DNA of 51,149 nucleotides from the NCBI RefSeq assembly GCF_900114655.1, contig NZ_FOTT01000022.1, positions 1 through 51,149 on the forward strand, given 5' to 3'. Shown piece after piece: positions 4,413-23,494 of the stretch. Below the pieces are notes generated by a model. That model ran no database searches. It saw only the letters and a program-made list of their open reading frames with translations, and was not told the origin of the DNA. Numbering within the stretch: the stretch's first letter is position 1; each line of letters starts with the position of its first letter. Source of the DNA: Candidatus Frackibacter sp. WG13. Lineage in GTDB: Bacteria; Bacillota; Halanaerobiia; Halobacteroidales; Acetohalobiaceae. Both the position numbers and the translations under genes were made by a program.

Positions 4413-4441
4413 TTGACAAGAGTCGAAAAATACTATATAAT
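4413..4441 (+). promoter_or_regulatory. Consensus sigma-A promoter of the hydrogenase operon
   Basis: A perfect TTGACA (4413-4418) and a perfect TATAAT (4436-4441) with 17-bp spacing give the strongest promoter in the window. The predicted start of transcription is near 4448, giving a leader of about 210 nt before hndB, with an operator just downstream. The leader is AT-rich and no riboswitch was recognised in it. Confidence 0.88.
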
Positions 4442-4455
4442 CTACATGAAAACAG

Positions 4456-4473
4456 TTGTGAAAGTTATCACAA
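4456..4473 (+). promoter_or_regulatory. 18-bp palindromic operator, Rex-type or Crp-type
   Basis: TTGTGAAAGTTATCACAA is a near-perfect inverted repeat. It differs at one position from the Rex pattern TTGTGAA-N4-TTCACAA and matches the Crp pattern TGTGA-N6-TCACA exactly. It overlaps the predicted transcription start region of the hydrogenase promoter, a position suited to repression. Rex senses NADH/NAD and often controls fermentation and hydrogenase genes; a Crp-like protein is encoded at 12373. The sequence alone does not decide between them. Confidence 0.75.
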
Positions 4474-9296: not shown

Positions 9297-9342
9297 CGTC
9301 GTATAGGGAATTATACTTAATTTCAAATTGCGGATAACTTCT

Positions 9343-9389
9343 AGTCAATATACCTATATTGACTTTGTTCTTATATAGGTATACTGACT
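9343..9389 (+). repeat. Palindromic repeat cluster upstream of the adenylate cyclase
   Basis: AGTCAATATA (9343-9352) and TATATTGACT (9355-9364) form a perfect 10-bp inverted repeat with a CC spacer. A third arm, TATAGGTATACTGACT (9374-9389), is the reverse complement of AGTCAATATACCTATA with one mismatch. It lies about 115 bp before the cyclase start. It could be an operator cluster or an RNA hairpin; no T tract follows, so it is not a terminator. Confidence 0.6.
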
Positions 9390-9503
9390 TCCTTCTAAGT
9401 ATGCATCTCAATTATTATTTATTAATTTTGTAGCAGGAAGATTGATGATTAGAATAGAATTAATTTGAATAAGAGCGAAAAATCAAATTATAAAGGGGCA
9501 AAG

Positions 9504-11270
9504 ATGATGAGGCAGATGAGTAAAAAAAGGTTATGGTTAGTAATTAGTGTTTCTATTAGTTTGCTTATCATCATTACTTTTTATTTAGGTTTTTTTAATA
9601 ATTTAGAATTAATGACTATCGACTATAGATTTATAGGAAAGTATTTATTAAGTGGTTCGAATTTTAATACAGATGTAGTCTTAGTAACTGTTGACCAAGC
9701 ATCTTTGCAGCAGTTAGGAGACTGGCCGTGGTCAAGAGAGAAGCATGCTAAAGTAATAAATAATTTAACAGCAGCTGGTGCCGAAGTTATTGGAGTAGAT
9801 TTTATTTTTAGTAATGGGAATCCAAAAGAAGAAGCAGCGGACCAGGAATTAATAGAAGCTACTAAAGAAGCAAAAAGAATCGTTTATCCTGTTATTCTAG
9901 ATCTAAAGATTAGTCGCGGCTGGTTACCTTTCCAAAAGGACAACTTAAAGATAAAAGAGATAAAGCTGCCATTTAAAGAGTTATTTAAGCAGGCAGATAA
10001 CTTAGGATATATTAATTTAATATTAGATAAAGACGGGTTAGTTAGAAGAATACCTTTAATTACAAGAGGGAAAAATGAATATCGTTCTTTTAGTGCAGTG
10101 ATAGTTAGAGAATATTTGCAAAGTGATAAGTATTTAGATAATAATTTAAATGAAGGGGATTTAATTAATTATTTAGGACCTGCTAAGACGTTTCCCCAGT
10201 TATCTTATTATCAAATTTTAAATAATAAATTTGCAAAGCAGTTAGTTGAAGATAAGGTTGTTCTATTAGGTGCAACAGCAATAGGGTTAGGAGATAAATA
10301 TATGACACCTTATGCTAATTTTGGTCCTATGTCTGGAGTTGAGATTCATGCAAATCTAATTCAAGCACTAATAGATAAGAATCAAATTAATAAGATGAAC
10401 TCTAAAGTAACTGCTTTCATAATATTACTTACTGGAACACTAAGCACTTATATATTTATAAGATTAAAGCCTAAAATAGGGATATTAATTTTAGTAATTG
10501 AAATTGTTCTTTTAATATTCACATCATTCTATTTATTCATATATAATAATATTTTGTTGAATATAGTACCAATCTTAGTTAATATGTTATTAGTCTATTT
10601 AGCTTCATTAGGGAGCCATTATTTTCTAGCCGATCCAAAGCGATTACAGTTAAAGGAAATCTTTAATCGTTATTTGCCAGAGGAGCTAATAGTAGAGGTC
10701 TTAAATAATCCAGCGGCCATTAAATTAGGAGGACAACGAAGAGAAGTGGCGATCCTATTTGCTGATATTAGAGGCTTTACTGCTTATACAGAAAGACATG
10801 AGCCAGAGAAGGTAGTCAGACAAGTAAATCAATACTTAACAGTAATGGCTGAAAGCATTTTAAAAAATGGTGGAATGTTGGATAAATATACTGGTGATGG
10901 AATTATGGCTGTCTTTGGGGCTCCATTAGAGGATGAAGAATACTTTATAAAGGCGATTAAAACAGCATTAGAGATTCAGAAGAATAGTCAAGAATTAGAG
11001 TCTGAATTTGATATAGGGATTGGAATCGGGGCCGGAGAGGTAGTGGCTGGTAATATTGGTTCTCAAAAGAGGATGGACTATACCGTTATTGGAGATCCTG
11101 TTAATTTAGCAGCTAGATTAGAAGGAATGGCTAAATCAGGAGAGATTTTAATAACAGCTGAAGATTATAATAAAGTAGAATCAGATGTAAAAGGAGTTAG
11201 CTTAGGAGAGACTAAGCTTAAAGGAAAAAAGAGAAAGGTTGAAGTCTATAATTTAATAGATTTAAAATAG
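9504..11270 (+). CDS. CHASE2-domain class III adenylate cyclase
   Basis: This is a membrane protein of about 588 residues. A first transmembrane segment (residues 12-35) leads into a CHASE2 extracytoplasmic sensor domain (DVVLVTVDQASLQQLG, WPWSREKHAKVI, GVDFIF), then three more membrane segments (about 300-375), then the class III cyclase domain (about 415-580). The cyclase shows both metal aspartates (FADIRGF and GDGIMA), the lysine of DKYTGD that favours ATP over GTP, and DYTVIGDPVNLAARLEG with the transition-state asparagine and arginine. It should make cAMP. The frame opens at TTG 9465, but AAAGGGG (9492-9498) fits ATG 9504 or 9507. The FecR-domain and Crp-like genes follow directly, suggesting one signalling unit. 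Confidence 0.9.
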   Translation: MMRQMSKKRLWLVISVSISLLIIITFYLGFFNNLELMTIDYRFIGKYLLSGSNFNTDVVLVTVDQASLQQLGDWPWSREKHAKVINNLTAAGAEVIGVDFIFSNGNPKEEAADQELIEATKEAKRIVYPVILDLKISRGWLPFQKDNLKIKEIKLPFKELFKQADNLGYINLILDKDGLVRRIPLITRGKNEYRSFSAVIVREYLQSDKYLDNNLNEGDLINYLGPAKTFPQLSYYQILNNKFAKQLVEDKVVLLGATAIGLGDKYMTPYANFGPMSGVEIHANLIQALIDKNQINKMNSKVTAFIILLTGTLSTYIFIRLKPKIGILILVIEIVLLIFTSFYLFIYNNILLNIVPILVNMLLVYLASLGSHYFLADPKRLQLKEIFNRYLPEELIVEVLNNPAAIKLGGQRREVAILFADIRGFTAYTERHEPEKVVRQVNQYLTVMAESILKNGGMLDKYTGDGIMAVFGAPLEDEEYFIKAIKTALEIQKNSQELESEFDIGIGIGAGEVVAGNIGSQKRMDYTVIGDPVNLAARLEGMAKSGEILITAEDYNKVESDVKGVSLGETKLKGKKRKVEVYNLIDLK

Positions 11271-11295
11271 GTAATTCTTAATGGAGGGAATAATA

Positions 11296-12348
11296 GTGAA
11301 AAAGATTATAATGTTGTTCTTTATATTAACCTTATTAGGAGGTCAAGTAATTAGTTATGCCCAAAACGAAGTGCAACATACTGAGTTTGAGGCTAAAGTG
11401 ATTGAGGTAAAGAAAGATGTTAAATATCGTAAAGCTAGAGATTGGTGGAAGTTTTGGCAATGGGAAGATTTAAGTTCTGAAGTTAAATTAAAAGCTGGAG
11501 CTTTATTGAAGGTAGGAAAAGATAGTCAATTAGAATTGGAATTTATAAATGGTACTAGAGTTTTAGTAAAAGCTAATAGTAATTTAGAGATAGCTAATGG
11601 TAAGGCAGGCAAGAATAAATCACCTTATTTTAGAAGTCAATCTCTAAAACTGACTTTAGGTGAAGTTTGGGTAAAGACGATCGAATCATTATCTGGAATT
11701 ACTAGATTTGAGGTTAGGACTCCTAATGCAGTTGCTGGAGTGAAAGGTACGCTGTTTAATGTTAAAGTTAATTCTAAACAAGAAACAGAGGTAAGAGTAG
11801 ATGAAGGAAGAGTCTTAGTTACTAATAATAATGATGGAAGAATAGTTGATAAACTACAAAGGCTAAAGGTAAATAGAGAAGGTGAATTTGAGGAAATAAA
11901 GAAAGGTCAAGAGGTGTCTAAAGATTGGAAGAGTGTTAAACCTTGGATGAAAGAGTTAGAGGATTGGGTTGAAAAGAAGAAGCGTGAAATTGAAGAAAAG
12001 AAAGAAGATTGGAAGGAAGAAAGAGAAGAAAGAGAAGAAAGAGAAGAAAGAGAAGAAAGGGAAGAGCAAAGCGAAGAAGAAGGGCATAAAGATAATGACC
12101 AATATGAAGAACGAGATGAAGAATTAGATGAGGATGATAGAAATCATGATAAGAATGATAATGAAAGTAACAATGATCATAGACGGGATGATAATATGAG
12201 CGATGATGATCATGATAAAGATGATCGTGATAATCATGATAGAGATGACCATGACAGGGCTAAGCACGATAGAGGAGATAATGTAAGTGATGATAATCAT
12301 GATAGAGAGGGTCGTGACAGTGATAATCATGACAAAGATGATGATTAA
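11296..12348 (+). CDS. Secreted FecR-domain protein with acidic, histidine-rich tail
   Basis: This 350-residue protein has a signal peptide (residues 1-23, KKIIMLFFILTLLGG then SYAQ), then a FecR-like domain (about 30-190) with LKAGALLKVGKDSQLEL, LTLGEVWVKT and FEVRTPNAVAGVKGTLFNV. A long charged helix (KKKREIEEKKEDWKEE) leads into tandem REE units encoded by repeats of AGAGAAGAA at about 12021-12060. About 85 residues at the end are mostly Asp, His, Asn and Arg (HDRDDHDR-like units, about eight His), which could bind divalent cations. The frame opens at ATG 11281, but the ribosome site GGAGGG at 11283 indicates GTG 11296. It sits between the cyclase and the Crp-like gene; its role in that system is unknown. 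Confidence 0.8.
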   Translation: MKKIIMLFFILTLLGGQVISYAQNEVQHTEFEAKVIEVKKDVKYRKARDWWKFWQWEDLSSEVKLKAGALLKVGKDSQLELEFINGTRVLVKANSNLEIANGKAGKNKSPYFRSQSLKLTLGEVWVKTIESLSGITRFEVRTPNAVAGVKGTLFNVKVNSKQETEVRVDEGRVLVTNNNDGRIVDKLQRLKVNREGEFEEIKKGQEVSKDWKSVKPWMKELEDWVEKKKREIEEKKEDWKEEREEREEREEREEREEQSEEEGHKDNDQYEERDEELDEDDRNHDKNDNESNNDHRRDDNMSDDDHDKDDRDNHDRDDHDRAKHDRGDNVSDDNHDREGRDSDNHDKDDD

Positions 12349-12372
12349 GAGTCTAAAGAAGGGGGGATGTAA

Positions 12373-13026
12373 ATGACAACATTAGATTTTTTATCAGAAA
12401 CATCTCTTTTTTCTAACCTTTCGCAAGAACAATTGAAGAAGATTGAGATGATAACTTCAACTAAAGAAGTCCCTGCTGATAAAATGTTATTTTTTGAGAA
12501 TGAACCAGGGGATGTTGTATATTTAATAGTTAGTGGTAGAGTAAAGATTAGTAAGATATCAGCTAGTGGACGAGAAAAGACATTAGCTATTTTAGAAGAC
12601 GGTGATATTTTTGGTGAAATCTCTTTATTAGATGGAGGGCTTCGGTCTGCTACTGCCCAGGTATTAAAGAATACGAAATTATTAATTATTCATCGTCAAG
12701 ATTTTTTAAAAGTAATACATAAATATCCGGAGATAGGTAGTAAAATTATAGCAGTATTAAGCCAAAGATTAAGAGATACTAATCGTCAGTTAAGTAATGC
12801 TCATTTTAAGACAGTAACTGAAAGAACTAAAGATTTATTACTTAAGTTAGTTGATGAAGAAGGTAAAGAGGTAACAGAAGGAATTATGATTGAGAAAAGC
12901 CTGACTCATGAAGAGTTAGCTGGTTTAATAGGAACTTCACGGGAAAGTATGACGCGGACTTTAAATAAACTTCAGAAGCAAGGGTGGCTTCGAACTACTA
13001 ATAAAGGAATAATAATATTCGATTAA
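12373..13026 (+). CDS. Crp/Fnr-family regulator, probably cAMP-responsive
   Basis: This 217-residue protein has a cyclic-nucleotide-binding beta barrel (about 10-125), a long dimer helix, and a winged helix-turn-helix (about 165-217). The phosphate-binding cassette reads DIFGEISLLDGGLRSATA, retaining the glycine-glutamate and arginine-serine used for cAMP. The recognition helix, GTSRESMTRTLNKLQ, has the RExxxR pattern that E. coli Crp uses to read TGTGA. It contains no cysteine, so it is not an iron-sulfur Fnr sensor. A GGGGGG ribosome site precedes ATG 12373. Its position after an adenylate cyclase, and Crp-type palindromes at 4456 and 13154, make a cAMP-Crp circuit plausible. That circuit is inference. 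Confidence 0.88.
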   Translation: MTTLDFLSETSLFSNLSQEQLKKIEMITSTKEVPADKMLFFENEPGDVVYLIVSGRVKISKISASGREKTLAILEDGDIFGEISLLDGGLRSATAQVLKNTKLLIIHRQDFLKVIHKYPEIGSKIIAVLSQRLRDTNRQLSNAHFKTVTERTKDLLLKLVDEEGKEVTEGIMIEKSLTHEELAGLIGTSRESMTRTLNKLQKQGWLRTTNKGIIIFD

Positions 13027-13153
13027 ATGTCGAGTATAATCTAAAATAAATATTTTTTCGTAAAATTAGTTTAAATTTTCCAGATTATGTGGTATAATTA
13101 GTTTAATGATAATTGTCATATTTTGAAGCAGTGGGTTTGTTTTATTCCTTTTT

Positions 13154-13169
13154 CGTGATAAAAATCACA
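13154..13169 (+). promoter_or_regulatory. Crp-type palindrome upstream of the histidine kinase
   Basis: CGTGA-TAAAAA-TCACA matches TGTGA-N6-TCACA except at the first base; its core GTGAT-AAAA-ATCAC is a perfect inverted repeat. A TATAAT at 13093-13098 is a likely -10 upstream, so the site lies about 50 bp downstream of the probable transcription start and 29 bp before the kinase ATG. It follows directly after the crp-like gene. Confidence 0.6.
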
Positions 13170-13197: not shown

Positions 13198-14340
13198 ATG
13201 GATGAGAAATTAGGTGTTAACTCTTTAGACCAAGTAGTGGATAAGATGGTTACAGCTATTGATGATAGCCAAGGTGAAGTCTTTGAGATTGCGGAAGCAG
13301 CGAGACAGGAACACGAAGCAGCAGAAAAGGATTTAAAAGACATTAAAGAAGAGACTGTTAATATTATTCAGAAAGTAGATGACTTAAGAGAAGCTAATCG
13401 AAAAGCTAGGATGAATTTAATGAAGGTTAGCCAAGATTTAGACGATTATAGTGAAACTGATATTAAAGAAGCTTATGAGAAGGCCAAGGATATTCAAGTT
13501 GAGTTATCTTTATTTGAAGAGAAAGAGAAACGAATGCGGCAAAAGAGAGATGAACTAGAAAGAAGATTGAAAGGAATTGAAGAGACTGTAGAGAGAGCTG
13601 AAAATTTAGTTTCTCAAATTAAGATTATGAAAGATTTTTTAGCTAATGACTTACAGGAGTTCTCTTCACAAATGGAAGGTCTAAAGCAGAAAGAACAGTT
13701 AGGAATTAAGATCATTAAAGCACAAGAGGAAGAAAGAAAGAGAGTTGCCCGTGAGATTCATGATGGACCAGCCCAATTACTAGCCAACGTTGTTTTCAAA
13801 GTCGATTATTCACAAAAATTATTGGATAATGATGTTGGACAAGCTAAGGAAGAATTACAAGAATTAAAGAAGTTGGTTAGAAAGAGTCTTCAGGATGTGC
13901 GAAAGATAATTTTCGATTTGAGGCCAATGACCTTAGATGATTTAGGATTAATTCCAACAGTTAGAAAATATATTGAAGATTTCATGGAAAAAACAGGTTT
14001 AGATATTCAAATTAAAGTTTTGGCTGAAGAAGTAGATTTAAAGTCTTCACATGAAGTAGTTATCTATCGAATAATACAAGAAGCGCTCAATAATATTAAC
14101 CAGCATGCTCAGGCTAAGCGAGTTGATATTAAGTTAGAATTAAAACATAATTTAGCTAATGTAGTTATAAAAGATGATGGTTGTGGCTTTAATGTGGATG
14201 AAGTTTTGGAGAACCAAGTAGGCAAGAGTTCGTTTGGCTTGTTAAGTATGAAAGAGAGAGTCGAATTGGTACAAGGAAGTATTAAATTTGAGTCGCAAAG
14301 AGGTAAAGGGACGAAAATAACCCTTAAAATTCCTGTTTAA
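13198..14340 (+). CDS. degS: DegS-like cytoplasmic sensor histidine kinase
   Basis: This 380-residue soluble kinase has no membrane segment. Residues 1-165 are a long coiled coil typical of the DegS sensor region. The dimerization and phosphoacceptor motif of the HisKA_3 class reads EEERKRVAREIHDGPAQLLAN with the histidine near 186. The ATPase domain follows with IQEALNNINQHAQA (N box), IKDDGCGF (G1) and GLLSMKERVELVQG. Length and layout match Bacillus DegS. The ATG is preceded only by a weak ribosome site. No degU-like response regulator follows; the next genes encode the Tad pilus. A Crp-type palindrome lies upstream, suggesting control by the adjacent regulator. Confidence 0.87.
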   Translation: MDEKLGVNSLDQVVDKMVTAIDDSQGEVFEIAEAARQEHEAAEKDLKDIKEETVNIIQKVDDLREANRKARMNLMKVSQDLDDYSETDIKEAYEKAKDIQVELSLFEEKEKRMRQKRDELERRLKGIEETVERAENLVSQIKIMKDFLANDLQEFSSQMEGLKQKEQLGIKIIKAQEEERKRVAREIHDGPAQLLANVVFKVDYSQKLLDNDVGQAKEELQELKKLVRKSLQDVRKIIFDLRPMTLDDLGLIPTVRKYIEDFMEKTGLDIQIKVLAEEVDLKSSHEVVIYRIIQEALNNINQHAQAKRVDIKLELKHNLANVVIKDDGCGFNVDEVLENQVGKSSFGLLSMKERVELVQGSIKFESQRGKGTKITLKIPV

Positions 14341-14693: not shown

Positions 14694-15182
14694 ATGTTAA
14701 ATTTATTCTTAGGCATTAGTTTATTAATTCCGTTATGGACTGATATTAAGGAAGGAATCATTCCTAATTATTATACTGGGTCTTTAATTGCTTTTGGAAT
14801 TATAATTAATTTATATTTACATAGTTGGTCAGGAGTTATATTTAGTTTAAGTGGTTTTTTTGTGGGGCTATTTATATTCTTAGTTCCTTATGTACTAGGT
14901 GGTTTAGGAGCCGGAGATGTGAAGTTATTAGCTGCCATTGGAGCAGTAAAAGGGGCTAAATTTATCTTTATAGATTCTTTGGTAGTTGCAGTAGTAGGTG
15001 GTTTGATTTCACTCTTTATTTTGGTTATGAATAAAAGATTAAATATCTTAATTAACAAGTTACTATATAAAAGTTCTTTGGAAGATTTATCACATAAGAA
15101 TGGTAAGAATTCTTTTGCTTATGGTGTAGCGATAACAACCGGAACGTGGATAATTATTCTTTATGATAAGTTCCAATTGTAA
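14694..15182 (+). CDS. tadV: Tad prepilin peptidase (TadV/CpaA, A24 family)
   Basis: This 162-residue membrane protein has about five hydrophobic segments. The two catalytic aspartates of A24 peptidases are in WTDIKEGIIPN (residues 16-26) and GGLGAGDVKLLAAIG (near 75-90). It lacks the N-methyltransferase domain of type IV pilus PilD, as expected for TadV/CpaA. It should process the Flp pilin and the TadE/TadG-like pseudopilins. It starts 37 bp after the pilin hairpin with an AAGAGGGG ribosome site, and tadE follows 23 bp later. Confidence 0.92.
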   Translation: MLNLFLGISLLIPLWTDIKEGIIPNYYTGSLIAFGIIINLYLHSWSGVIFSLSGFFVGLFIFLVPYVLGGLGAGDVKLLAAIGAVKGAKFIFIDSLVVAVVGGLISLFILVMNKRLNILINKLLYKSSLEDLSHKNGKNSFAYGVAITTGTWIIILYDKFQL

Positions 15183-15205
15183 TATAAGTAAGGTGGTGGC
15201 TGCTA

Positions 15206-15604
15206 ATGGTTATACAATTATTAAGACAGAAGAGAGGTCAAGCTCTAGTTGAATTAGCTTTGGTTTTACCGGTTATATTGTTGATTTTATTTGGTATTGT
15301 AGAGTTTGGGCGGGTCTTTCATGCTTACTTAGTAATTACTAATGCAGCCAGAGAAGGGGCTAGAGAAGGAGCAATTAGTAATAGTGATTCACAGATTCAA
15401 AGTACTGTTGAGACGGCAGTTGATCCTAGTTTAGATTTAAATAATCTTAATATTAAGATTAGTCCTAGTCAGGCCAACCGTAGTCGTGGTGATTCAGTAA
15501 AGGTAGAAGTGAAATATAATGTTGACCTCTTTACTCCAGTGGTTACACAATTATTACCGGACCCTTTTCCTATTAGTAGTGCGTCAGTAATGAGGATTGA
15601 ATAG
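15206..15604 (+). CDS. tadE: TadE-like pseudopilin
   Basis: This 132-residue protein has the TadE signature: a basic start with QKRGQALVELALVLPVILLI, in which GQALVE is the prepilin cleavage region with a +5 glutamate, then a single transmembrane helix and FGRVFHAYLVITNAAREGAREGA. The rest is a small periplasmic or surface beta domain (VKVEVKYNVDL). It is needed for Flp pilus assembly in characterised Tad systems. It lies between tadV and the tadG-like gene with short gaps and an AAGGTGG ribosome site. Confidence 0.9.
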   Translation: MVIQLLRQKRGQALVELALVLPVILLILFGIVEFGRVFHAYLVITNAAREGAREGAISNSDSQIQSTVETAVDPSLDLNNLNIKISPSQANRSRGDSVKVEVKYNVDLFTPVVTQLLPDPFPISSASVMRIE

Positions 15605-15643
15605 AAAATTAAGGCTAAAAAGCTGTTAAAAGGAGGGAGCTAG

Positions 15644-16597
15644 ATGGATTTTTTTAGGTCAGAAGAAGGGACAGTTATTGTGTTGGTAGCTTTATTATTA
15701 ACTATCTTTTTGTCTTTTTTGGCCTTGGTAGTAGATGTAGGCTTCTTATACCTAGCTCGGAATAGATTAATTAATGCTTTAGATGCAGCTGCTTTAGCCG
15801 GAATACAAAAGTTACCAGATCATCCAACTGAAGCGAAACAGGTTACTTTAGATTATGCTGATAAGAATAACCTAGATACTAATAAGGTGTCTATTCAAAT
15901 TACAGATAATAATCATCAAATTACAGTAGGGACTAGTCGACAGGTAGAAATGAATTTTGCTTCTGTCTTTGGTGTTGACCAAGTAAAAGTTACAGCTGAA
16001 TCAGGGGCAAAGGTAGGACAAGTAACTGCTATTAGGGGAGCAGTTCCTTTTGGTATTGTTAACCAACAGTTTAGTTATGGTGAAGAATATTATTTGCGAT
16101 ATGGCTCCGGACAAGCAGATGAAGAGGATGGGGCTAGAAACGGAAACTTCGGTGCTTTAGCTTTAGGAGGACAAGGGGCAAGGAATTATGAGCAGAATTT
16201 AAAGAATGGTTATGATGGTCAACTAGAGATAGGTCAGGCAGTAACTACTGAACCTGGTAATATGGCAGGACCAACTTTGCGAGGAATTAATGAAAGGTTA
16301 GATGGTTGTCAAGAATTAATACCTTGTACTTATAATACAGTTGAGAGAGGCTGTCCAAGGCTATTATTTGTACCGGTTATTGATCAATTGGGGAATGGAA
16401 GAAGTGAAGCAACTATTGTAGGTTTTGCTGCTTTCTTTCTAGAAGGAACAGATAGTAAGCAACAAGGGAAGAAAGGTAAGAGCAAAGGACAGAGCACCTA
16501 TGTAGAAGGTAGATTTATTAACTGGTTATCGACGACCGGTCAATTAGGCTCAGAAGGTCAAGATTTTGGGTTAAGAACGGTTAAATTAGTTGAGTAA
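15644..16597 (+). CDS. tadG: TadG-like Flp pilus-assembly protein
   Basis: This 317-residue protein begins with FRSEEGTVIVLVALLLTIFL, a TadE/G-like N-terminal helix, and then FLALVVDVGFLYLARNRLIN and ALDAAALAGIQKL, the conserved block of the Tad domain that follows the helix. The remaining 230 residues are outside the cytoplasm and include three cysteines (LDGCQELIPC and ERGCP). I see no von Willebrand MIDAS motif, so it is the short form of TadG. An AAAGGAGGGAG ribosome site precedes the ATG. It lies 26 bp before cpaB in the same operon. Confidence 0.85.
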   Translation: MDFFRSEEGTVIVLVALLLTIFLSFLALVVDVGFLYLARNRLINALDAAALAGIQKLPDHPTEAKQVTLDYADKNNLDTNKVSIQITDNNHQITVGTSRQVEMNFASVFGVDQVKVTAESGAKVGQVTAIRGAVPFGIVNQQFSYGEEYYLRYGSGQADEEDGARNGNFGALALGGQGARNYEQNLKNGYDGQLEIGQAVTTEPGNMAGPTLRGINERLDGCQELIPCTYNTVERGCPRLLFVPVIDQLGNGRSEATIVGFAAFFLEGTDSKQQGKKGKSKGQSTYVEGRFINWLSTTGQLGSEGQDFGLRTVKLVE

Positions 16598-16623
16598 GAG
16601 TAGCGTCTAAGAGGGGGATGGAG

Positions 16624-17550
16624 ATGAAACCAAAAGTTATTCTAATCATAGCTCTTGTTTTAGGATTAATTACCTCCGGAGCAGTCTATTTTATGATGGA
16701 TAATATGCAAGGGGAGCCGGTAGCTAAGAAGACAGTATCGGTAGTAGTAGCGACTAAGGATATTCAACCGAGAATGACAATTGAAGAAGGTTTAGTGAAA
16801 GTTAAACAGATGCCAAAAGAGATGGTGCATCCCCAAGCAATAAATTCACTTTCGGAAGTGAAGGGTAATTTAGTATTAAAGAAGATTATTGCTGGTGAAC
16901 AGATTCTAAAACCTAGATTGTTAAATGAAAAAGAAGATAGTCCAGGCTTAGCTTTTAACTTGGAGCCTAGCCAAAGAGCGGTCACCGTAGCTGTCAATGA
17001 AGTCATTGGAGTAGCTGGATTCTTAACACCTGGTGACCACGTTGATGTTGTTGGTGTTTTTACTTCTAATTCAGGTGATGAAGCCATAGCTAAGACAGTA
17101 TTGCAGAATATAAAGGTATTAGCGGTAGCTCAAGATATGGTAAATGGTAAAGATCAAGAGCCAAAGGTAACAAAGAGTGTTACTTTAGCTGCTGACTTAA
17201 AAGATGCAGAAAAATTAATCTTAGCTGATGCAAGAGGTGATATCAGATTGGCATTACGCTCAGTTAAGAATAAGAGTAATGTAGTAACTGATGGAATTAA
17301 AATTGCAGAAATAATCAAACAGGAAGATGAGCCTACCGAACGATACCAAGAAGTAAGTCCTAAAGTTAAAGATGCACCTATAAGCAAGGAAGTAAATAGG
17401 GACCAAAGCACCAAACAAAACGAAGAAGTCACTAAAGAGAACCAAGCTAAATCATTTGCTACTAAAGTTAGAAAGAAAAGAGAGATAAAGAAAGAGATAG
17501 AGATAATTCGTGGTGCTAAGAAGAATTACATTCAAGTGCCAATGCAATAG
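16624..17550 (+). CDS. cpaB: Flp pilus assembly protein CpaB/RcpC
   Basis: This 308-residue protein has an N-terminal transmembrane anchor (VILIIALVLGLITSGAVYF) followed by a SAF domain (about 40-105; VVVATKDIQPRMTIEEGLV) and then the RcpC/CpaB beta domain (GFLTPGDHVDVVGVF). The last 80 residues are charged and look disordered. The upstream ATG at 16618 directly touches GAGGGGG (16611-16617); ATG 16624 has a workable 6-base gap and is preferred. CpaB works with the secretin in the envelope. The secretin gene follows 14 bp later. Confidence 0.9.
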   Translation: MKPKVILIIALVLGLITSGAVYFMMDNMQGEPVAKKTVSVVVATKDIQPRMTIEEGLVKVKQMPKEMVHPQAINSLSEVKGNLVLKKIIAGEQILKPRLLNEKEDSPGLAFNLEPSQRAVTVAVNEVIGVAGFLTPGDHVDVVGVFTSNSGDEAIAKTVLQNIKVLAVAQDMVNGKDQEPKVTKSVTLAADLKDAEKLILADARGDIRLALRSVKNKSNVVTDGIKIAEIIKQEDEPTERYQEVSPKVKDAPISKEVNRDQSTKQNEEVTKENQAKSFATKVRKKREIKKEIEIIRGAKKNYIQVPMQ

Positions 17551-17564
17551 AGGGAGTGATGCTG

Positions 17565-18869
17565 ATGAAAAAGAGGGTCGCTATACTTTGGCTGATTATT
17601 ATAATCTGTTTATTATTAACGACTAATGTAATTGCTCGTCAAGGTACAAAGTTAAAGATCCCTACTGGCCAGTCTCAGTTGCTAAAGATTAACGGCTTAA
17701 AGAGAGTGGCAATTACTGAACCGGAGATTGCTGATGTAATAGCTATTTCTACTGATCAACTCCTAGTCAATGGGAAGCAAGTAGGCGAGACAACCCTACA
17801 TATTTGGGATAAGCAAGGGCATAAGGTCTATCAACTACAGGTTATTAAGGATGAACAGAATATAATTAATAAGGTTGAAAAATTAATCAGTATAGATACA
17901 GTTAAAGTTGCTAAGGTTGACCAGTCTATTATTTTAACTGGTCAAGTAAAGAATCAGAATCAACTACAGAGAGCTAAGGAGATAGCTAGTGTTTTTGGGG
18001 AAGAGGTAGTTAATCATTTAGTTGTGCAGAATCCACAACAAATTTTATTAGAAGCACAAGTATTTGAAATCAGTAAAACGTCCAGCGATGACCTAGGCTT
18101 TGATTGGTATAGTGTTGATGGGACAGGTGCAAACTTAGGTTCAGGAACAGCCTTGTTAGGTGAAAGACTATATCATAAGGACGCTAATGATAATATTATT
18201 CGAAATTCCACTCCTCGATTTGGGTTAGGATACTCAGAACGGCTAAGTGAATTAAGGGTCAAACTAAAGGCTTTAGTTCAATCAGGAGATGCAACATTAT
18301 TGGCTAAACCAAAGCTAGTAGCGAAGAGTGGAAAAGAAGCTAAATTTGCTACTGGTGGAGAAATTCCGATTGTAACTACTAATAACTCAGGAGAGCAGAC
18401 AGTGATTTGGAAGCAGTATGGAGTTCAGTTTAAGATAAAGCCAACTGTGACTAAGAACGGAAGATTGAAAGCATACTTAAATCCTAAAGTTAGTCGGTTA
18501 GATTGGGCTAATGCTGTCGAATACGGCAATGGGAGGCTACCGGCTATTAAAAGTAGTGAAGTAGCTACCGAAGTAGTTATAGATGATGAAGCTACATTAG
18601 CTATTGGCGGATTAATCCAGCAGTATAAGTCGCGCGAAGTGAATAAAGTACCGCTTTTAGGAGATTTACCTATATTAGGAGCTCTCTTTAGGAGTAAGTC
18701 ATTTAAAGAAGGGAAATCTGAGTTAGTTATATTAGTAACACCTAAGATTATTGACTCATCTTTAAAGAGTAAAGAAGCGATAGGGTTAGATAGCACATTC
18801 AATAAAAAAGAGAAGTTGGAAAAGAAGGTAAAACATAAGGCTGAGGGTAAGGGTAAGGCTGAGGAGTGA
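17565..18869 (+). CDS. cpaC: Tad pilus secretin CpaC/RcpA
   Basis: This 434-residue protein starts with a signal peptide (residues 1-26, ILWLIIIICLLLTTNVIA). The pilus secretin N-domain follows (LKINGLKRVAITEPEIADV and VNGKQVGETTLHIWD), then a BON-like domain, and then the secretin domain (about 165-400), with VLLEAQ-type LLEAQVFEI, ALVQSGDATLLAKPKLVA, GGEIPIV and the C-terminal VPLLGDLPILGALFRS. A secretin forms an outer-membrane channel, so the organism should be diderm. AGGGAG at 17551 fits ATG 17565 with 8 bases, better than GTG 17556. A lysine-rich tail ends the protein. Confidence 0.92.
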   Translation: MKKRVAILWLIIIICLLLTTNVIARQGTKLKIPTGQSQLLKINGLKRVAITEPEIADVIAISTDQLLVNGKQVGETTLHIWDKQGHKVYQLQVIKDEQNIINKVEKLISIDTVKVAKVDQSIILTGQVKNQNQLQRAKEIASVFGEEVVNHLVVQNPQQILLEAQVFEISKTSSDDLGFDWYSVDGTGANLGSGTALLGERLYHKDANDNIIRNSTPRFGLGYSERLSELRVKLKALVQSGDATLLAKPKLVAKSGKEAKFATGGEIPIVTTNNSGEQTVIWKQYGVQFKIKPTVTKNGRLKAYLNPKVSRLDWANAVEYGNGRLPAIKSSEVATEVVIDDEATLAIGGLIQQYKSREVNKVPLLGDLPILGALFRSKSFKEGKSELVILVTPKIIDSSLKSKEAIGLDSTFNKKEKLEKKVKHKAEGKGKAEE

Positions 18870-18928
18870 AGCTCAAGTGATCTTATTTAGCTGATAACAT
18901 TTTAAGTTTAAAGTGAGGTGATTTGTAG

Positions 18929-20146
18929 GTGTCGAAGATGATTAAAATTCTATTAGCTGACGATATTGATGAGACTAGAGCTAATATAAGAAAGCTGATA
19001 AGTTTAGAAGAAGATTTAGAGGTAGTGGCTGAGGCAGTAGATGGTGAAGATGCGATAAAGAAGGCTAAGAAGATTAAACCGGATATAATATTAATGGATA
19101 TTAATATGCCTAATATGGATGGTATTCAAGCGACGGAGATAATTAGTCGTGAGGTTCCGGGTTCTCCTATTATTATGATGTCGGTACAGGAGGAGCAGGA
19201 CTATTTACGCCGGGCAATGATGGTGGGGGCAAGAGAGTATTTGATTAAGCCTTTTGGTGATGATGAATTGATTAATACGATTAAACAGGTCTATGATTTA
19301 GAGTCTAAAAGAAAGAGTTATCAGACTCAATGTGAAGTAGAAGTAGAGTCTAAAGAAGAGAGAGTCATCTCGGTGTTTAGTAGCAAAGGTGGCGTAGGCA
19401 AGACACTTTTGGCTACTAATTTAGCAGTTGCCTTACAACAGGATGAAGAGAAAAATGTAGTCTTAGTAGACTTAGATTTACAATTTGGTGATGTAGCGGT
19501 GATGTTGGATTTAACACCGCGAATTACTATTTCTGATATGGTTAATGAGCTGCAGAGTCTTAATCCTGATAATATTGATGATTATTTATTAAGTTATGAA
19601 AATGGTTTGCGAGTATTGGCATCGCCACTAAGACCAGAACAGGCTGAGATGATCAGTGGTGAAGAGATTAAGCAAGTGATTAGCATCTTAAAAGAGAGGT
19701 TCGATTACATTATTATCGATACTGACCAGTCTTTTTCGGGAGAGACGTTGACAGCACTTGATAATTCGGATTTAATATTATTAATTGCAATGTTAGACTT
19801 ACCTACGATTAAGAATGTCAGGCTCTGTTTAGAGGTTATGGAAAACTTGAATTATCCAGAAGAGAAGATAAAGCTAGTTTTAAATCGTTCCTCTAATGAT
19901 GTAGGAATTAAAGTTAGTGATTTAGAAGATAACCTTAATTATTCTGTTGATATTCATATTCCGAGTGAGGGGAAGGTTACTGTAGATGCTATTAACCAGG
20001 GGGTTCCATTTGTAATCTCGAGACCACAAGCAGATATCTCTAAGCAGATTAATGAACTAGTAAAGTTAGTAACAGGTGATGAAGAAGTTCCAGAGACTAA
20101 AGAAGGTTGGTTGAAGAAGATAAGTAGCTTTTTGAATAAAGAGTAG
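18929..20146 (+). CDS. cpaE: CpaE/TadZ-like receiver-ATPase fusion
   Basis: This 405-residue protein has an N-terminal response-regulator receiver (1-125) and a ParA/MinD-like ATPase (about 147-385). The receiver keeps the acidic pair D11-D12, the phosphoacceptor aspartate in MDINMPNMDG (D57), and the lysine in LIKPFG, so it can probably be phosphorylated; many CpaE/TadZ receivers are degenerate. The ATPase has the deviant Walker A motif SSKGGVGKT (about 150-158) and VDLDLQFGD. It should place the pilus machine at the membrane. GAGGTG is 8 bases before GTG 18929. It lies 59 bp after the secretin gene. Confidence 0.88.
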   Translation: MSKMIKILLADDIDETRANIRKLISLEEDLEVVAEAVDGEDAIKKAKKIKPDIILMDINMPNMDGIQATEIISREVPGSPIIMMSVQEEQDYLRRAMMVGAREYLIKPFGDDELINTIKQVYDLESKRKSYQTQCEVEVESKEERVISVFSSKGGVGKTLLATNLAVALQQDEEKNVVLVDLDLQFGDVAVMLDLTPRITISDMVNELQSLNPDNIDDYLLSYENGLRVLASPLRPEQAEMISGEEIKQVISILKERFDYIIIDTDQSFSGETLTALDNSDLILLIAMLDLPTIKNVRLCLEVMENLNYPEEKIKLVLNRSSNDVGIKVSDLEDNLNYSVDIHIPSEGKVTVDAINQGVPFVISRPQADISKQINELVKLVTGDEEVPETKEGWLKKISSFLNKE

Positions 20147-20166
20147 AGATAGATTAAGGTGGTGAG

Positions 20167-21543
20167 ATGATGTCTTTACTAGAACGTTTAGCACAAGAAC
20201 AGGAGAAACAAGCGAAGGAAGAGTTTGAGCAGGAGAGTAGTTCTAAGGGTAGTAATTCTGTTTTACCACAGGATCCTTACCGGGAATTAAAGACGAAGAT
20301 TCATAATTATTTACTTAATGAACTAGATCTACAGATAATCTCTAATGCTGATGCAGATGACTCGAATGATCAATTACGGGAAGATATTAAGGAATCAGCA
20401 ACTGAGGTAATTGAAGCAGAAGAAGAGAGAATCTCTCCTGGTGATAAGCAGAAAGTGATTAAAGAGATTATAGATGAAATTATCGGTTTTGGCCCGATTA
20501 ATGGGGTTCTAAATGACCCAGAAGTATCAGAAGTGATGGTCAATGGTCCAGATCAGATCTATGTAGAACGTGATGGGAAATTAGTTTTGACCGATGTTAA
20601 ATTTCGTGATGACGACCATGTGATTCATATTATTGAGAAGATTGTCTCTCCTCTCGGGAGAAGAATAGACGAGAGTAGTCCGATGGTAGATGCTCGGTTG
20701 CCGGATGGCTCAAGAGTAAATGCTATTATCCCGCCTTTAGCTTTAAACGGACCGACAATTACTATTCGAAAGTTTTCAGAGGATCCTTTTACGGTTAAAG
20801 ATTTAGTTAATTTTGGGACCTTAACTGAAGAGATGGCACAATTTTTAGAGGCTTGCGTTGAAGTAAGGCTTAATGTAGTCGTTTCCGGAGTAACAGGTTC
20901 TGGTAAGACGACTACGCTTAATGTTCTTTCCTCTTTTATTCCTGATGATGAACGGATTGTAACTATTGAGGATGCAGCTGAGTTGCAGTTAGCTCAGGAT
21001 CATGTAGTCTCCTTAGAAACAAGGCCTCCAAATGTAGAGGGTAAAGGCGCTATCACTATGCGTGAGTTGGTTAAGAACTCACTACGAATGCGTCCCGACC
21101 GAGTTGTAGTCGGTGAGGTTCGTGGTGGAGAAGCTTTAGATATGTTACAGGCGATGAATACAGGACATGATGGTTCTTTGACCACCGGTCACGCTAATAG
21201 TCCACGGGATATGTTATCTAGATTAGAGACGATGGTAATGATGGCAGGAATGGAGCTGCCGGTTAGAGCAATTCGTGACCAGATTGCTTCGGCAGTAGAC
21301 TTAATTGTTCAACAGACTAGATTAAGAGATGGAAGTCGTAAGATAGTTAAGGTGACAGAGGTACAGGGTATGGAAGGAGATGTAATTACTCTCCAAGACA
21401 TATTTTCATTTGAACAAGAAGGATTAGACCAAGACGGTAATATTATCGGTGAATTTAAACCAACAGGAATTAGACCGAAATTTATTGAACGTTTCAAAGC
21501 AGAAGGAATAGAGTTGCCAGCCAATATTTTTGCTGCTTATTAA
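20167..21543 (+). CDS. tadA: Tad secretion ATPase TadA/CpaF
   Basis: This 458-residue cytoplasmic hexameric ATPase drives Flp pilus assembly. It shows an N-terminal helical region, the EVMVNGPDQIYVERDGK motif of CpaF ATPases (about 120-137), the Walker A motif GVTGSGKTTTLN near 239, the Asp box TIEDAAELQL, Walker B near VVGEVRGGEALDMLQAMNTG, and the His box TTGHANS. Two ATGs (20167 and 20170) follow AAGGTGGTGAG; either could start the protein. It overlaps no gene, and tadB starts 19 bp after its stop codon. Confidence 0.94.
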   Translation: MMSLLERLAQEQEKQAKEEFEQESSSKGSNSVLPQDPYRELKTKIHNYLLNELDLQIISNADADDSNDQLREDIKESATEVIEAEEERISPGDKQKVIKEIIDEIIGFGPINGVLNDPEVSEVMVNGPDQIYVERDGKLVLTDVKFRDDDHVIHIIEKIVSPLGRRIDESSPMVDARLPDGSRVNAIIPPLALNGPTITIRKFSEDPFTVKDLVNFGTLTEEMAQFLEACVEVRLNVVVSGVTGSGKTTTLNVLSSFIPDDERIVTIEDAAELQLAQDHVVSLETRPPNVEGKGAITMRELVKNSLRMRPDRVVVGEVRGGEALDMLQAMNTGHDGSLTTGHANSPRDMLSRLETMVMMAGMELPVRAIRDQIASAVDLIVQQTRLRDGSRKIVKVTEVQGMEGDVITLQDIFSFEQEGLDQDGNIIGEFKPTGIRPKFIERFKAEGIELPANIFAAY

Positions 21544-21562
21544 GTTGAACGGGGGGGTAGGG

Positions 21563-22540
21563 ATGGTAATAGCAGTTATTATCTTAGTCTTTTTAACGGT
21601 TACTTTAGGAACTTTAGCTCTTTATAGCCTATTAACTGCAAAACAGGAAAGATTAAATAATCGATTGAATAAGTATTTAGAAACAGAAGAGTATATTATA
21701 AATGAAGCAAAAGATGCTAAAGAAGAATCAGTTGATGGTCAAAAAAGGGTTTTGGACTACTTAAGTGGTTTTAGTAAGGTCTTTGCTTCTTTTTCATTAA
21801 CTAGCGGTTTAGAGGATGAATTGAAGAAGACTAGTCTCCCAATTAAAGCTTCGGAATTTATAACTCTTAATTTAATAATAATTTCTGTCTTAGGAATTGG
21901 TGGTCTATTAATTCTTAAAAGTTTAATACATGTTGTTCTATTGGCAGTAATAGGTGCAATAGGGCCTTACTTATACTTAAGATATAGTCAAAAGAAGAGA
22001 TTGAATAAATTTAATGACCAAATAGCAGATTCACTTACGATTATTTCTAACTCATTAAAGGCAGGTTATAGCTTCTTTCAAGCATTGGAGATGGTAGCTA
22101 AAGAGATGGCACCGCCTATTTCCGAAGAGTTCACTCGAGTATTAAAGGAAGTAAACTTAGGTGCTCCTGCCGAAGAAGCACTGGTAGCGTTAACAGAACG
22201 CGTAGAGAGCGATGACCTTGATTTGGTAATTACAGCCGTTGTTATTCAGCGCCAAGTAGGAGGGAACCTATCAGAGATTTTAGATAGTATATCACATACT
22301 ATTCGCGAACGAATCAAAATACAAGGTGAAATTAAGACCTTAACAGCACAAGGAAAAGTTTCCGGAATCATTATCGGTATCCTACCTGTCGGTTTAGGCT
22401 TAGTCTTAGGCTTAATCAATCCCGGTTATATGTTACCGTTACTTACGCATCCATTAGGTAAGACGATGATAGGTATAGCTTTGATTTCACAGTTGATAGG
22501 CTTACTCTTCATTAAAAAGATTATTAGTATTAAAGTGTAA
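21563..22540 (+). CDS. tadB: Tad platform protein TadB
   Basis: This 325-residue inner-membrane protein of the type II secretion F family has an N-terminal transmembrane segment, two in the middle (LIIISVLGIGGLLILKSL and VVLLAVIGAIGPYLYL), and a C-terminal pair. The T2SSF motif is NSLKAGYSFFQALEMVAKEM with GGNLSEILDSISHTIRER. The longer frame from TTG 21530 overlaps tadA; GGGGGGG at 21551-21557 supports ATG 21563. With TadC it forms the platform that couples the ATPase to pilin extraction. Confidence 0.92.
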   Translation: MVIAVIILVFLTVTLGTLALYSLLTAKQERLNNRLNKYLETEEYIINEAKDAKEESVDGQKRVLDYLSGFSKVFASFSLTSGLEDELKKTSLPIKASEFITLNLIIISVLGIGGLLILKSLIHVVLLAVIGAIGPYLYLRYSQKKRLNKFNDQIADSLTIISNSLKAGYSFFQALEMVAKEMAPPISEEFTRVLKEVNLGAPAEEALVALTERVESDDLDLVITAVVIQRQVGGNLSEILDSISHTIRERIKIQGEIKTLTAQGKVSGIIIGILPVGLGLVLGLINPGYMLPLLTHPLGKTMIGIALISQLIGLLFIKKIISIKV

Positions 22541-22576
22541 ATGAGATAGGGGCTAAAAAATGGGAGTGATATCACG

Positions 22577-23494
22577 ATGTTAATACCAATTGTAGTCTTC
22601 ATAGTAGTAGTCGGGTTGACCCTATTAATAACTAATTATGCTAATCTTCGTGAACGAAAGATTAAGGATAGATTACAGAAGTATGCTCAATTACAGAAAG
22701 AAGTTTTACCACGGGAGGTTGAATTACAGCAGTCTTTTTGGGAGAGGTTAATTAGACCTATCTTGCAGAAGGTTGCTGTAATTTTTGTAAAGTTGACTCC
22801 TATTGGATTCAAGGATAGCTTAAGAAAAAAATTGGTCTTAGCAGGTCATCCTTTTGACTTAGAAGCAAAAGAAGTTTTAGCAATTCAAGGGAGCATGATG
22901 GTGATTTTGCCGATTGTGGTCTTCTTAATAGTAGTTCAATTTGCTTGGCAACAGGCCATCTTATTAGCTATTGTATCTGCTGTGGCTAGTTATTTAATGC
23001 CGCAATTCTTATTAAGTAAGAAGATTACAGAGAGGCAGCAAGAGATACAGCAGACACTACCAGATGTTTTGGATCTATTAACTGTTAGTGTCGAAGCAGG
23101 ATTAGGTTTTGATTCGGCTTTAGTTAAGGTTGTAGATAAGATTAAAGGGCCTATTAGTGAAGAATTTGAAAGGCTATTACAAGAGATTAGAATGGGTAAA
23201 CCACGGCGAGATGCAATGCGTGATTTAGGTAATAGAACTAATGTGGAAGATTTAGCAAACTTCATAACGGCCATCGTGCAAGCAGATAAATTAGGAGTGA
23301 GTATTGGTAAGGTATTGCGAGTGCAGTCTAATCAAATTCGCCTTAAACGAAAACAGCGAGCCGAAGAAGCGGCAATGAAAGCGCCGATTAAGATGCTTTT
23401 ACCTCTAGTATTCTTTATCTTTCCTACAATCTTTATCATCCTTTTAGGTCCGGCTGTCATTAAAGTTATTAATTCATTTACAAACTTGAATTAA
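22577..23494 (+). CDS. tadC: Tad platform protein TadC
   Basis: This 305-residue T2SSF-family membrane protein is paired with TadB. Its hydrophobic segments lie at 1-20, about 110-150 and 275-300. The family motif is LTVSVEAGLGFDSALVKVVD, followed by GKPRRDAMRDLGNRTNVEDL and LGVSIGKVLRVQSNQIRLKR, characteristic of TadC. It starts 36 bp after tadB. The palindrome GTGATATCAC lies across its ribosome-binding region but is probably chance. The gene ends the pilus machinery; no TPR-type tadD is present. Confidence 0.92.
   Translation: MLIPIVVFIVVVGLTLLITNYANLRERKIKDRLQKYAQLQKEVLPREVELQQSFWERLIRPILQKVAVIFVKLTPIGFKDSLRKKLVLAGHPFDLEAKEVLAIQGSMMVILPIVVFLIVVQFAWQQAILLAIVSAVASYLMPQFLLSKKITERQQEIQQTLPDVLDLLTVSVEAGLGFDSALVKVVDKIKGPISEEFERLLQEIRMGKPRRDAMRDLGNRTNVEDLANFITAIVQADKLGVSIGKVLRVQSNQIRLKRKQRAEEAAMKAPIKMLLPLVFFIFPTIFIILLGPAVIKVINSFTNLN

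Follow-up and report, generated by a model that had tools for sequence, protein, structure and literature searches.

Three consecutive genes on a 51,149-nt contig of the salt-loving anaerobe Candidatus Frackibacter sp. WG13 (NZ_FOTT01000022.1; hereafter the window) encode a predicted CHASE2 adenylate cyclase, an exported FecR-domain protein and a Crp-family regulator, and probably constitute a cyclic adenosine monophosphate (cAMP) signalling unit of the CyaD1-FecR-Clr kind known from Sinorhizobium meliloti. The open reading frames (ORFs; 9465-11270, 11281-12348 and 12373-13026) match the gene positions in an earlier reading of the sequence (the original prediction), and we confirm that the three genes and the Crp-type site beside them lie at these positions and that the genes form a real, conserved unit (Table 1). 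Of the cAMP-Crp circuit proposed there, the pairing of cyclase and Crp is well supported by synteny and by co-segregation of the cAMP cassette, but the arguments drawn from the recognition helix, the window site and the FecR protein are weakened.

Among 59 searched genomes of the class Halanaerobiia (G000 being the present one), the cyclase-FecR-Crp order occurs in 17, spread over seven families, with crp truncated by a contig end in two. Protein searches placed a Crp about 0.7–1.3 kb downstream of a cyclase relative in 16 further genomes, and on reading those 16 loci an FecR-type protein lies between the two genes each time; the FecR domain scores above the Pfam cut-off in all 6 operon proteins scanned. 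Pairwise distances of the three operon proteins correlate at 0.92–0.96, which would fit co-inheritance, though shared species history alone could give such values. Partial versions of the arrangement also exist. For example, G049 has a CHASE2 cyclase beside a long FecR protein with no operon Crp there, and family f11 (G042, G043, G044 and G046) has a related cyclase, whose locus in G044 includes FecR and no adjoining Crp.

The cyclase ORF is open from a TTG at 9465, and the ATG at 9504, with AAAGGGG ahead of it, is the better start. The resulting protein of 588 residues matches Pfam CHASE2 (5.8e-56) and Guanylate_cyc (1e-26). Class III adenylate cyclases are recognized by two metal-binding Asp, a substrate-binding Lys with Thr or Asp, and an Asn-Arg pair, and the Lys/Thr substrate pair is that of adenylate-type class IIIb enzymes. 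The ATP-type residues noted in the original prediction are borne out: Asp421 and Asp465 (metal) and Lys461 and Thr527 (substrate) are unchanged in 15 homologues, and for the Asn-Arg pair the window cyclase has N534 and the motif VNLAARLE. It is the sole class III cyclase of the 2.77-Mb genome.

The strongest evidence that the regulator reads a cyclic nucleotide from the neighbouring enzyme is that its cassette strictly tracks the cyclase gene. Specifically, the regulator (Pfam cNMP_binding, 3.7e-24; HTH_Crp_2, 8e-15) is the only one of the four Crp-family proteins in the genome with the cassette, here GEISLLDGGLRSA; both this retained GE...RSA cassette and the lack of cysteines had been described correctly before. 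Across the class, the cassette GE...RS(A/G) is present in 12 of 12 aligned operon Crps (and in all 17 on reading), while 20 other Crps, mostly the top matches within their genomes, all lack it (Fisher, 1.7e-9). The Crp of G049, encoded on a different contig from its CHASE2 cyclase and FecR protein, has it as well.

A Crp-type site just downstream of crp had also been pointed out, and CGTGATAAAAATCACA indeed lies exactly at 13154-13169. Allowing at most 1 mismatch to TGTGA-N6-TCACA, a site falls within a 230-bp interval around the crp stop in 5 of 15 loci, one of them that of the window, against 4 such sites in the 227 kb of the same loci elsewhere (P about 3e-9; the 15 loci are not fully independent, and the five with a site span three families). 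In G050, the site between crp and degS is exact (L077:5368). This conserved position lifts the window site above chance.

Other sites stand where an activator could act. In four genomes (G016, G015, G040 and G045), crp is followed by the gene of a secreted protein that has a helical part and ends in an acidic tail; a site stands about 41 bp ahead of the predicted start point, a -10-like box follows after some 21 nt, and a good -35 is absent. The gene after crp is degS in G000 and G050, and there a charged-tail secreted protein encoded elsewhere is preceded by GGTGATGACCATCACA, 21 nt and TATAAT. The 21-nt spacing is found ahead of secreted proteins in G016, on contig 38 of G000 and in G050, and ahead of the cyclase itself in G001; in G015, G040 and G045, where the -10 boxes were placed by eye, it is nearly 21 nt, and the G040 site has two mismatches. 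Such spacing corresponds to class II activator geometry. The secreted protein shared by G000 and G050 is without a relative in the six other class members that we tested, and BLAST gives no match between it and the proteins secreted in other families. A further exact site with class II spacing (L376; contig 13 of G000, 412-427) precedes a gene whose small product carries the SQELD motif seen in Spo0E-like phosphatases, which may point to sporulation.

Table 1. Positions of the features discussed, in window coordinates unless another contig is named.
Feature	Position	Strand	Details
[FeFe]-hydrogenase operon promoter	4413..4441	+	Perfect consensus, TTGACA-17-TATAAT
Exact TGTGA-N6-TCACA site	4457..4472		Centre about +16 of hydrogenase promoter
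CHASE2 adenylate cyclase (predicted)	9504..11270	+	Pfam CHASE2 and Guanylate_cyc; invariant catalytic residues
CHASE2 extracytoplasmic sensor domain	9558..10427	+	Pfam; cyclase residues 19-308
Class III nucleotide cyclase catalytic domain	10740..11255	+	K/T (ATP-type) substrate residues
Exported FecR-domain protein	11281..12348	+	Pfam FecR 1.7e-13; AlphaFold model; highly charged D/E/R/K/H C-terminal tail
Crp-family regulator	12373..13026	+	Pfam; cAMP cassette GEISLLDGGLRSA; recognition helix RESMTR
Predicted degS promoter	13070..13098	+	TTTAAA-17-TATAAT, TG before -10
Crp-type site CGTGATAAAAATCACA	13154..13169		Between crp and degS; one mismatch to TGTGA-N6-TCACA
DegS-type sensor histidine kinase	13198..14340	+	Pfam DegS 3.4e-53, HisKA_3, HATPase_c
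HcpR/FNR-like Crp paralog L003	L003:1411-2088 (G000 contig 16)		Helix RETITR; no cAMP cassette; beside CcdA gene
Secreted protein with D/R-rich repeat tail like the FecR tail	L366 1104-2097 (G000 contig 38)	reverse complement	Between ABC transporter genes; class II Crp site

The cAMP signalling unit would work as follows. The inner-membrane cyclase would hold its CHASE2 domain outside the cytoplasm, where the exported FecR protein would be a probable periplasmic partner or signal carrier; once stimulated, the cyclase would make cAMP. The Crp encoded two genes on would bind cAMP and then TGTGA-N6-TCACA sites, activating genes of secreted charged-tail proteins from class II distance and, next door, affecting degS.

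Several observations weigh against this reading. The transition-state Arg of the cyclase is missing in some relatives. The window holds 7 matches to TGTGA-N6-TCACA with up to 2 mismatches where 18 are expected, such that the site taken alone is no better than chance, and CGTGATAAAAATCACA is the least typical of its set, without the inner bases (GTGAYG..CRTCAC) that mark the best sites linked to the operon. Its centre falls about 56 bp past the start point predicted for degS, which makes activation from there unlikely; repression or modulation of degS would be likelier. Loci of family f2, in which the helix reads RETITK, RATITK or RESITK, have no such site after crp. Genome-wide, exact sites outnumber the reversed control 46:10 in operon genomes and 37:25 in the others (P = 0.009); the excess is larger in the operon genomes but does not separate the two Crps. 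The degS site could also be taken by a paralog whose recognition helix is the same. Residue 86 of TrmD, reported as a cAMP indicator in Firmicutes, is Phe here and in related cyclase-less genomes and Leu in several operon genomes; it follows phylogeny, and we set it aside as a marker of cellular cAMP.

The paralog in question, L003, underlies the most serious rival explanation—i.e. that the sites at 13154 and 4457 belong to this HcpR/FNR-like protein, that the operon Crp has its targets elsewhere and that the adjacency of site and crp is coincidental. We regard this as a genuine possibility that nevertheless falls short of being likely. The original prediction had relied on an RExxxR helix that reads TGTGA; RESMTR is present and the site by crp is conserved, but the combination is not diagnostic of Crp, because the cassette-less L003 carries RETITR and HcpR1 of Desulfovibrio desulfuricans has the same R, E, R helix and is reported to bind the same TGTGA-N6-TCACA sequence (PMC5701242). 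As such, the helix cannot split the CRP from the HcpR group. HcpR1 differs from the window Crp in regulating nitrate and nitric oxide (NO) genes as a proposed NO sensor, a role for which L003 is the better candidate here. TGTGA-N6-TCACA sites also precede hydrogenase, hcp, nap and CO-dehydrogenase genes in cyclase-less genomes, and L003 is the candidate natural owner of this set; in G000, hcp has such a site, for which both L003 and the window Crp are candidate users. By contrast, three families have sites near the crp stop, and GTGAYG-N2-CRTCAC occurs in noncoding DNA, or where crp ends, only in operon genomes (G000 and G050, and G016 at the crp stop), while its matches in operon-less genomes and the one in G001 lie within coding genes; this test is not fully independent, because the motif was partly derived from those sites.

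The hydrogenase site begins 15 bp past the hydrogenase promoter, and the identical spacing (+16) in G050 suggests a roadblock repressor. The HcpR-like paralog probably owns this site or has a share in it. We do not claim the hydrogenase operon as a cAMP-Crp target, since such sites also precede hydrogenase operons in the cyclase-less genomes G053, G054 and G055. Judging from sites present in the class, the regulon of L003 would take in hcp, nap, CO-dehydrogenase, formate/nitrite transporter and hydrogenase genes. Between the hydrogenase operon and the cyclase, the window also contains overlapping inverted repeats (TCAATATACCTATATTGA and TATATAGGTATAC, 9340-9395), possibly a terminator or the operator of another regulator, and directly 3' of degS lies a Tad/Flp pilus-like cluster (14694-23494) that is next to the operon in G050 too.

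The FecR protein had been regarded as unexplained, which no longer holds: among 80 CHASE2 cyclase loci from many phyla, 35 have an FecR protein nearby and only 4 a Crp, and S. meliloti has a matching gene set, so the protein is no oddity in kind. GTG 11296 is a likely alternative start of its ORF. An AlphaFold model built from 29 sequences (predicted local distance difference test, pLDDT, 79) matches the periplasmic signalling domain of PupR in the PDB (VIA Z 13.9, root-mean-square deviation 2.2, 121 aligned), and a second clear match is a putative anti-sigma factor of Parabacteroides (Z 13.3). The N-terminal part of the model somewhat resembles a cell surface anchoring domain (Z 7.0), which may reflect a common arrangement only; low-scoring Polo-box and OspA matches were discounted. 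As modelled, the protein has the fold of the periplasmic FecR signalling domain of the FecI-FecR type. It shares this fold with the FecI-FecR anti-sigma system and lacks the cytoplasmic anti-sigma part of that system: no such domain was found, the N-terminal helix resembling a signal peptide and Pfam returning FecR alone.

That this protein has no part in signalling, being either an unrelated passenger or a protein of the cell wall or of adhesion, is rather unlikely. Clr controls the S. meliloti FecR protein SMc02177, which is dispensable for signal perception ex planta, and this would favour that reading. However, FecR is the middle gene in 17 of 17 operons, besides its recurrence near CHASE2 cyclases across phyla, and a CHASE2 histidine kinase operon also holds an FecR protein. 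The latter, the Burkholderia BiofilmReg operon (PMC5192318), likewise joins a CHASE2 sensor to an exported FecR-domain protein (LysM-FecR), but signals through a histidine kinase and response regulator rather than through cAMP.

In CRP, Thr127 and Ser128 of the C-helix contact adenine. That the window regulator is a Crp fold ignoring cAMP, or answering cyclic guanosine monophosphate (cGMP) or both like S. meliloti Clr, which responds to the two nucleotides, or that the cyclase has another product, is improbable: its C-helix has Asn rather than Ser after Thr, and most relatives have Ala-Asn, but Thr-Asn is also the pair of Mycobacterium tuberculosis CRP, whose entries are its best PDB relatives by sequence, the Lys/Thr substrate pair is constant in the cyclases, and the cassette strictly accompanies the cyclase gene.

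The closest known system is the clr-cyaD1-smc02177-smc02178 region of S. meliloti, which encodes the CHASE2 cyclase CyaD1 (SMc02176), the Crp-type Clr (SMc02175) and the FecR-domain protein SMc02177 (PMC5498481, PMC13001267). Clr is cAMP-dependent, with cAMP control proven; smc02178 and smc02177 are its targets, and the reporter target is the secreted neighbour SMc02178 (PMC5498481, PMC13001267). Compared by locus tags and gene content, both systems encode a CHASE2 cyclase, an FecR protein and a Crp together, and both have a Crp site ahead of a secreted protein, which lies by crp in G016, G015, G040 and G045 and elsewhere in G000 and G050. They differ in phylum, in site (TGTTN8AACA for Clr), in number of class III cyclases (28 in S. 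meliloti against one here), in the legume signal, which has no counterpart here, and in the charged tail of the target here. In S. meliloti, the outer-membrane protein NsrA mediates the response of the CHASE2 cyclases. A Campylobacterota cluster (PMC9239204) likewise pairs a CHASE2 adenylate cyclase with an FecR envelope protein, and has a phosphodiesterase and a TPR protein instead of an adjoining Crp.

The use of cAMP in Firmicutes is debated (PMC5217690), and cyclases are reported absent from most of them, in agreement with the earlier remark that cAMP-Crp control is unusual in this group. Our literature search found no publication linking Halanaerobi- taxa to cAMP and adenylate cyclase. 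The operon is of a known kind and appears to add a second, remote case of the gene arrangement seen in S. meliloti.

With its single cyclase and its compact, conserved layout, this Firmicute pathway offers a direct test bed for cAMP use. It also backs the view that FecR proteins are general partners of CHASE2, a receptor domain with no known ligands. A wider reading, which we put forward as speculation and consider doubtful, is that diderm Firmicutes of the whole class sense their envelope through cAMP: an FecR protein without anti-sigma duty would relay a periplasmic signal to the CHASE2 cyclase, and cAMP-Crp would drive secreted charged-tail proteins resembling the FecR tail (a possible feedback) and, in this lineage, the DegS kinase. 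If true, it would tie cAMP to DegS-type control.

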